Shown here: in pieces, positions 124 to 2,519 of the stretch | How the letters are laid out: each line of letters begins with the position of its first letter | How positions within the stretch are numbered: the stretch's first letter is position 1 | Origin: Methanobrevibacter millerae | GTDB taxonomy: Archaea; Methanobacteriota; Methanobacteria; Methanobacteriales; Methanobacteriaceae | DNA: 64,000 bases | Reading direction: 5' to 3' | Assembly: GCF_001477655.1 (NCBI RefSeq) | Contig: NZ_CP011266.1 | Coordinates: 2,340,001-2,404,000, forward strand | Translations under genes and position numbers: made by a program | Notes under the pieces: model-generated | Databases searched by the model: none | What the model saw: only the letters and a program-made list of their open reading frames with translations | What the model was told of the DNA's origin: nothing

Positions 124-2436
124 TTAAGCCTCATTTTTAACAGTAATTTTGTTGTTTATATTATATTCATCATAGGATGAAGTTACGATATATTCACCAT
201 CCGCCAAATTGACAATTAGATTGGCAATTCCTTCGCTGTCGGTTACATTTGTGTATATGACGCCATTAATATTAAAATCTATGCTTTGATTTGCATAAGG
301 TTTACCTTGTCCGTCAATTAATCTTGCCTTGAAGTTTGTTGCATTTGTATGACTTACAGCATCATCTGCAAACAATACCGGAAGGATAGTTACTATATTA
401 GTATACTTTAATGAATTATATTCCGCAGTTACGACATAAGATCCCGGCTGCAATCTTAAATTGAGATTTGCATAACCTGATTCATTAGTGGTTCTTGTAT
501 AGAATACACCATTGATGTTGAATTTAACATCAGCATTCGCTAAAGGATTGCCGACATTATCCAATACCTTGATTGAATATGCAGAATCATTTCTGTAATA
601 CTTTGTTATGTCATGGCCGTCAACCAAAACAGGCAAAACCTTAACATTGTTACTGTGCTGTTCGCCGTTGTTCGGATTAATTGCAGTTAAAATATAATCT
701 CCAGGATTTAAATTTATATTCAATTTAGCCTGACCATTGTTATCGGTTGTTCTTGTGTAAAATACACCATTAATATTAAATTGAACACCAACATTAACCA
801 AAGGTTTTCCAGATGCATCCAAGAATTTAGCATAATATTGAGTGTCGTTTCTGTACATTTTTACAATGTCATTTCCTGAAATAGTATGTAAAACATTAAC
901 GTTCGCTGTTGTGCTGTTTTTACCAAAAGCACCAGCATAACTTGCAGAGACAGTATAATTTCCTGAATTTAAATTTAATGCAATTGAAGCCAATCCATTG
1001 TCATTTGTGGTTTTTACATAGTCAACACCATTGACATTTATAGTGACATTTTGGCCAGAAATTCCATCATTGTTTACATCCTTCAAGTATACATTGAACC
1101 TTTCAGAACCTTTATAATATTTTTTAACATCATTTGCTGAAATTAAAGCACCATATTCATTTACTTTTAATTTAATGCTATTGACAAAATTATTATTAAG
1201 TGAATATACCAAATCAGATTTTCCGGATTTAACTGCCTTGAGTGAAAGGGTGATGAAATTTTGACTGTTACAATCATTCAAATACCATGTTACAACGCGG
1301 GGAGCGGCATCATAAGTAAATGTTCCTTTTGAAAGGGTGGCTGTGTTGAAATCAAAGCCTTCGGGAATAGCGAATCTAACAACAGGATTTGATTTTGCAA
1401 TATAATTTACTTGATAAGTTAAATCTATTTTTTCTCCAACTATGTATGATTTGACCGGAGACAATAACTTAAAGATTTCAACAGCACTGTTTGAAAAGAC
1501 ATGGGTCCCTAAACCTAATTTGCCGGGAGTAGCCGGAAGAGAAGACCTGGAAATATAATTATTAAAGAAATAAATATTATCTGCCAGGGATGAAGTTGAC
1601 CTTCCAACACCCGCACCGTTGTCATTTGATGCATACACATCAACACTATAGGATAATCCGTTAGATGACTCGGACAGTTTCCAATGGTAAGTCATGAGAT
1701 TTCTTCTGTTGACCCCATAGGAATCAGTATAACCTATCCTAATTGCTTCATCAACAGGACTTGCAGCAGTGTTGAATGTTGATTTTTGAGAATATGAGTA
1801 TACGTTAGGACATACCACAAACTGTCCAGGCTCCAATTTTCCGGTATGATGTAAGTTTGCAAATGCAACACCATAAGTTCCATCGTTTGCCTTGATTACA
1901 AAATGACCCATGGAATATCTGGCGAGGATGTTGTGAATTCTTGAAAGATAACTGTCTGAAATTTGATTGTTTACAACCATTTCACTGGCAATGCTTTCAA
2001 TTTGTCTGAATACACTGCCGTCAGTTATACCACCATTACCAATGAGCCATCCGTTAGATGTTACAATCGAATGGACAAAATAGCCATCAGGATTTTTATA
2101 TTGCTTTACATATTCGATATCTCCCCATTTACCGCTTTCAACAATGATATCAAGAGCATTTGTTGCATCCCGCCTATGGGAGATAACGCCTTCATTATCG
2201 CTTACATGAAGAACAATAGAGCTGCACTCACTTAATTCAATCAAATCATCATCACTGTTTGTTTCCATATCAACAATTGGAGAACCGTCAGCATACTGTT
2301 CTACAATTACATCATCATTTATTTGTGTTTCTTGAGCAACTGTTCCATTTATCGAATCATCAGCTGAAACAAATGAAATGCTCAACAGAAAAACAATTGT
2401 TAAAATAAAAATAAAAAATTTTGAATATTTTTTAAT
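124..2436 (-). CDS. Adhesin-like surface protein with Ig-like repeats, probable ATT start
   Basis: A secreted protein of about 770 residues. The N-terminus (IKKYSKFFIFILTIVF, then SFVSADDS) is a clear signal peptide. Residues of about 60-340 form a domain I do not recognise. The C-terminal half holds four tandem domains of roughly 80-95 residues with the motif INGVxYxxTT and NLxxGxYxVTA, which is the pattern of bacterial Ig-like/carboxypeptidase-regulatory beta-sandwich repeats in methanogen adhesin-like proteins. No membrane anchor or sortase motif is seen at the C-terminus (KITVKNEA). The only standard start in frame, TTG at 2385, has no ribosome site and removes most of the signal peptide. 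ATT at 2436 lies 6 nt after GAGGTG. Function is probably cell-surface attachment; the ligand is unknown. Confidence 0.8.
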   Translation of the reverse strand: MKKYSKFFIFILTIVFLLSISFVSADDSINGTVAQETQINDDVIVEQYADGSPIVDMETNSDDDLIELSECSSIVLHVSDNEGVISHRRDATNALDIIVESGKWGDIEYVKQYKNPDGYFVHSIVTSNGWLIGNGGITDGSVFRQIESIASEMVVNNQISDSYLSRIHNILARYSMGHFVIKANDGTYGVAFANLHHTGKLEPGQFVVCPNVYSYSQKSTFNTAASPVDEAIRIGYTDSYGVNRRNLMTYHWKLSESSNGLSYSVDVYASNDNGAGVGRSTSSLADNIYFFNNYISRSSLPATPGKLGLGTHVFSNSAVEIFKLLSPVKSYIVGEKIDLTYQVNYIAKSNPVVRFAIPEGFDFNTATLSKGTFTYDAAPRVVTWYLNDCNSQNFITLSLKAVKSGKSDLVYSLNNNFVNSIKLKVNEYGALISANDVKKYYKGSERFNVYLKDVNNDGISGQNVTINVNGVDYVKTTNDNGLASIALNLNSGNYTVSASYAGAFGKNSTTANVNVLHTISGNDIVKMYRNDTQYYAKFLDASGKPLVNVGVQFNINGVFYTRTTDNNGQAKLNINLNPGDYILTAINPNNGEQHSNNVKVLPVLVDGHDITKYYRNDSAYSIKVLDNVGNPLANADVKFNINGVFYTRTTNESGYANLNLRLQPGSYVVTAEYNSLKYTNIVTILPVLFADDAVSHTNATNFKARLIDGQGKPYANQSIDFNINGVIYTNVTDSEGIANLIVNLADGEYIVTSSYDEYNINNKITVKNEA

Positions 2437-2519
2437 TTAAAACACCTCATAAGAAAATTATGTTAGAAGTGATAAAAATATATTGCTAAAAAAAGAAAAA
2501 AGAAAAGAGTTATAAGTAA

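Follow-up and report, generated by a model that had tools for sequence, protein, structure and literature searches.

Translation of an adhesin-like gene of Methanobrevibacter millerae SM9 very probably starts at a conserved AUU codon

We conclude that translation of the adhesin-like gene on the minus strand of the window (the whole 64,000-bp stretch analysed here of the genome of Methanobrevibacter millerae SM9, a methanogen of the rumen; the genome is a single contig of 2,543,538 bases) very probably starts at an AUU codon, the ATT at positions 2434–2436, as the preliminary description of this DNA had proposed. From this ATT the gene extends for 770 codons (124–2436, minus strand) with the frame open throughout. 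Initiation at AUU behind a strong Shine-Dalgarno sequence is the simplest account of three things taken together, namely the conservation of the codon among orthologues, the exclusion of the standard starts in three of the ten genomes and the apparent recurrence of AUU starts in other genes of the genus.

The minus-strand sequence around the start is TTATGAGGTGTTTTAA-ATT-AAAAAATATTCA. The Shine-Dalgarno sequence GAGGTG (2443–2448) lies 6 nt from the ATT, the intervening bases being TTTTAA (2442–2437), and the last three of these (2439–2437) are an in-frame TAA directly 5′ of the ATT; both features, noted in the preliminary description, can be read directly on the minus strand. Since the TAA adjoins the ATT, no upstream start is possible in the ATT frame. 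A spacing of 5–6 nt behind GGTG is the commonest among predicted standard starts in SM9, and the gene thus has a correctly spaced predicted Shine-Dalgarno sequence together with an AUU at the homologous start position. The codons after the ATT (AAA AAA TAT TCA ...) translate as IKKYSKFFIFILTIVFLLSISFVSA, by inspection a signal peptide (2362–2436, minus strand) that is complete only with the ATT start, again as described earlier; residues 2–17 of the ATT-started protein are KKYSKFFIFILTIVFL. The VSA of the signal peptide is invariant across the orthologue alignment, and the putative cleavage site was placed by inspection of the sequence.

A genus-wide search gave ten genomes with a readable start region (G000, G015, G045, G004, G016, G022, G003, G035, G018 and G027), a set that counts SM9 itself (G000); the other nine copies are 57–73% identical, and the majority of the orthologue genomes are metagenome-assembled. 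Eight of the ten, SM9 among them, have the gene behind the prefoldin gene on one contig, and G015 and G003 show a contig break or a different location instead. It had been suggested that an alignment of orthologues might reveal ATG in the start column, but all ten copies carry ATT instead, and this agreement among ten species excludes a sequencing error at the ATT as well as a recent mutation in SM9. The homologous place is occupied by ATG in two more distant, non-syntenic orthologues (G002 and G006) and in the paralogues examined. The neighboring codons vary, TAA, AAA, ATA, ATC, GAA, ATT or CTT preceding the ATT and AAA, AAT, TAC or TCA following it. The SM9 N-terminal region has 21 ATT codons, of which only 2 are shared as ATT by all ten genomes, and codon invariance is likewise limited to 2 of the 11 columns that are Ile throughout; the start column is one of the 2 in both cases. 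AUU is thus kept at the start more strictly than ordinary Ile codons are. GAGGTG is kept in eight copies and is replaced by GGGGTG in G022 and AAGGGGGAAT in G035. Over the first 417 codons, comparison with the orthologues gives dN of ~0.19–0.35 and dS of ~1.4–1.9, and such a low dN against dS indicates purifying selection on the protein.

The earlier characterization of ATT starts as rare needs qualification, in that this one is not isolated and apparent ATT starts recur in several Methanobrevibacter genes. In a survey of 864 kb of SM9 (34%), we counted the in-frame codons that follow a strong Shine-Dalgarno match (≥6 bases, spacing 5–7) close to the start of an ORF, and found ATG 77 times, ATT 8, TTG 7, ATA 4 and GTG 3. 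With sites beside an ATG removed, the counts are ATT 7, TTG 7, ATA 3 and GTG 3, with every other codon at 2 or fewer, so ATT equals TTG in frequency behind such sites. ATT makes up 7 of the 21 codons other than ATG, GTG and TTG, vs 4% at interior sites (p = 1.3e-5) and 6% of zone codons (p = 1.6e-4). Of the seven ATT candidates, the one in L208 probably reflects noise. We also set aside cfbD (F430 biosynthesis; L206:7676–8746, plus strand), which begins VIKIIHPRPSP and has GTG/TTG, ATT or ATA as candidate starts: position −9 alternates between GTG and TTG, and orthologues with ATG match the following codon, ATA, which makes the case ambiguous. The others were traced into further genomes.

The gene tiaS (L102:15899–17149, G000:675899, plus strand), whose product, tRNA-Ile2 agmatidine synthetase, has NCBIfam NF040849 as its best match (E 9e-138, under that model's cut-off score), has ATT as its apparent start codon in all 36 Methanobrevibacter genomes read. 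Within its first 100 codons the start is the sole codon-invariant column among five all-Ile columns. In sister genera the position holds ATA (g2, g11, g13 and g15) or ATG (g4, g6, g17 and g18), and g5 probably has ATT. The Shine-Dalgarno sequence of the g4 ATG genes, CAGTGAT, is weaker than the AAGGTGAT of the ATT genes, a pairing of ATG with weaker and ATT with stronger sites that resembles the known compensation of weak GTG and TTG starts by Shine-Dalgarno strength (PMC5622118). In three genomes (G009, G014 and G040) a TAA stands directly before the tiaS ATT, and the next NTG lies 16 codons on, past the conserved GIDDTDSP motif.

A membrane-protein gene (L097:8007–8891, plus strand), which we take to be TMEM175-like and whose product had no match in NCBIfam, has ATT and ATG alternating at one site across the genus. 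The ATT copies read GGTGATTTAA-ATT (G013), GGTGGTTTAA-ATT (G059) and GGTGGTTTGA-ATT (G039), and at the same place the ATG copies read TTTGATTTAA-ATG (G031), TTTGATGTAA-ATG (G017) and GGTGTTTAA-ATG (G015); the codon before the start is TGA in G039 and TAA in the other five. We also note that GGTG accompanies ATT and is absent from two of the three ATG copies (L149, L155, L156, L171, L174 and L176). Two further genes have their candidate start behind a strong Shine-Dalgarno sequence in SM9 and close relatives. The PAP2-like gene (L108:6969–7937, plus strand) has ATT in five of five close homologues, one of which (G020) is interrupted by stops, and in G050 it reads TAA-ATT. In five genomes the ICMT-like gene (L097:10549–11037, plus strand) has ATT or ATC; in one of these, G018, the codon is ATT and there is no upstream NTG.

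The claim that the adhesin-like gene has no usable standard start (AUG, GUG or UUG) holds for SM9, G022 and G035, and does not extend to the other seven copies, where the GTG of GAGGTG is in frame with the ATT across a six-base spacer. The family start could then be this GTG (GTG TTT AAA ATT ...), with the start lost or weakened in SM9, G022 and G035. An in-frame GTG is also present in many tiaS orthologues, and the GTG/TTG alternation at the corresponding place in cfbD fits a GTG/TTG start. Nonetheless we consider this reading improbable. The GTG cannot be used in SM9 (TAA between), in G022 (out of frame) or in G035 (AAGGGGGAATAATT-ATT, with no GTG), though these genes are intact and constrained, and ATT is therefore the single start common to all copies. 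Moreover, the GTG has no Shine-Dalgarno sequence of its own, a stop lies between it and the ATT in several genomes in the tiaS, PAP2-like and TMEM175-like genes, and a GTG start leaves the invariance of the ATT unexplained.

An automatic gene caller would choose the TTG at 2383–2385, which is the earliest ATG, GTG or TTG of the frame in the ORF listing, but it is very unlikely to be the translation start. The preliminary description judged it a poor start and this is borne out: it has no Shine-Dalgarno sequence, it falls midway along the signal peptide and would truncate it, and it is present only in SM9, the nine orthologues having other codons in that column. G022 and G035 have no NTG until 27 codons downstream, past the cleavage site and the whole signal peptide. 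A start at the ATG at 2450–2448 in another frame (ATG AGG TGT TTT AAA TTA ...), joined to the gene through a frameshift or a homopolymer error, is scarcely credible; this ATG overlaps the Shine-Dalgarno sequence in SM9, G003, G004, G018 and G022, but G016 has GTG and G027 has TTG in its place, G015, G045 and G035 lack it, the ATG frame stops after four codons in G004, no length change is common to the copies, and the SM9 genome is finished (PMC4987999). Equally implausible is an SM9 pseudogene that has lost its ATG, for although the paralogues have ATG, the 770 codons are intact, dN/dS is far below 1 and the same ATT is found in ten species.

Ig-like repeats were recognized by Pfam (Big_1, Big_3_5 and CarboxypepD_reg) at 127–1185 on the minus strand, and the signal peptide (by inspection) together with the Big_1 and Big_3_5 repeats makes the product an adhesin-like surface protein. 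The repeat part matches >80 stretches in the SM9 genome, a large adhesin-like expansion. The N-terminal domain (1447–2259, minus strand), which has an invariant Cys71 and R88-R89-D90, had no match among Pfam or PDB sequences; it is widespread in Methanobrevibacter. Its fold model is of low confidence (pLDDT 54), and Foldseek found weak matches to this model that include the Ntn folds 1kuu and proteasome subunits. These weakly suggest that the domain is possibly Ntn-hydrolase-like, in which case the protein would be an enzyme and not a plain adhesin.

Upstream of the adhesin-like gene lie genes for ribosomal protein L31e, eIF-6, L18A and prefoldin. Between the prefoldin gene and the adhesin-like gene there is a T-rich run (2488–2513, minus strand), T-rich in most orthologues as well, which to judge from its sequence is a probable transcription terminator. 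It is followed by a TATA-like element, AATATATTTTTATC (2471–2484, minus strand), located 45–48 nt upstream of the ATT in all ten copies of the upstream alignment. Such an element would set the transcription start ~20 nt before the ATT, leaving a leader of ~20 nt.

In initiation at the AUU, the GAGGTG six bases upstream would position the 30S subunit on this codon, initiator tRNA-Met (anticodon CAU) would presumably pair with it by the first two bases, and the first residue would be an N-terminal methionine. The complete 25-residue signal peptide would then lead to export of the Ig-repeat surface protein. AUU initiation is expected to be inefficient and may give a low or conditional protein level, for which the strong Shine-Dalgarno sequence would compensate in part. 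No odd tRNA was seen when an unusual initiator tRNA was sought in 34% of the SM9 genome.

In Escherichia coli, infC has an AUU start with start selection controlled by IF3, and an AUU start codon was reportedly described in E. coli pcnB by Binns and Masters in 2002 (cited in PMC13009471). The adhesin-like gene resembles these two in having AUU behind a Shine-Dalgarno sequence, a start that limits expression there. It differs in that they are bacterial and IF3-controlled, whereas SM9 is an archaeon with aIF1/aIF2, the product is a surface protein and the feature is shared by several genes of the genus. Feedback through a start-selection factor with an AUU start of its own was considered and rejected for aIF1, whose start codon is ATG in 13 Methanobrevibacter genomes (SM9 included), giving no sign of an IF3-like (infC type) feedback. 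In vitro, aIF1 is reported to destabilize complexes on a non-AUG mRNA (PMC6237735).

AUU starts are thus already known from bacteria, among them Staphylococcus aureus (PMC13009471). Like the SM9 gene, cvfC1 (AUU), ccpN and citZ (both AUA) of S. aureus pair a strong Shine-Dalgarno sequence with a non-canonical start that is conserved, and the AUU/AUA starts tested give ~10% of AUG expression; they were proved by ribosome profiling and reporters (PMC13009471), whereas the SM9 start is archaeal and predicted from sequence. By analogy with this ~10%, it is plausible, and a fair guess, that the AUU start keeps expression of the adhesin-like gene low, and the fact that ten species have kept such a weak start suggests selection for the low level itself. 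Among archaea, the Asgard AtubA gene has an ATT start inferred on the same kind of grounds, the completeness of the N-terminus and the spacing of the ribosome-binding site (PMC13394414), but that is one gene, and the SM9 start is conserved in ten species and has counterparts in further gene families. In the open-access papers searched, we found no archaeal set of AUU starts that is both conserved and recurrent. The SM9 protein shares a signal peptide and Ig-like repeats with the known Methanobrevibacter adhesin-like proteins (PMC4987999), and its gene differs by its ATT from the paralogues examined, which start with ATG.

Standard gene callers allow only ATG, GTG and TTG, so genes of this kind will be truncated or misplaced. 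For the adhesin-like gene such a caller would cut the signal peptide from a surface protein, and for tiaS its options would be a GTG within the ribosome-binding site or a start that cuts a conserved motif. We tentatively raise the possibility, which we hold as less than probable, that in Methanobrevibacter and its sister genera a few genes have been lastingly kept on AUU (also AUA and AUC) starts, selected for weak or regulated initiation, and that tiaS is among them. If so, the enzyme for reading AUA by tRNA-Ile2 itself begins with AUU, or with AUA in several sister genera; because TiaS makes AUA readable, it could conceivably feed back on its own level by way of this AUU/AUA start. Conserved archaeal AUU starts would be natural substrates for studying the tolerance of aIF1/aIF2 for non-AUG codons, and offer material for asking whether weak starts serve regulation.
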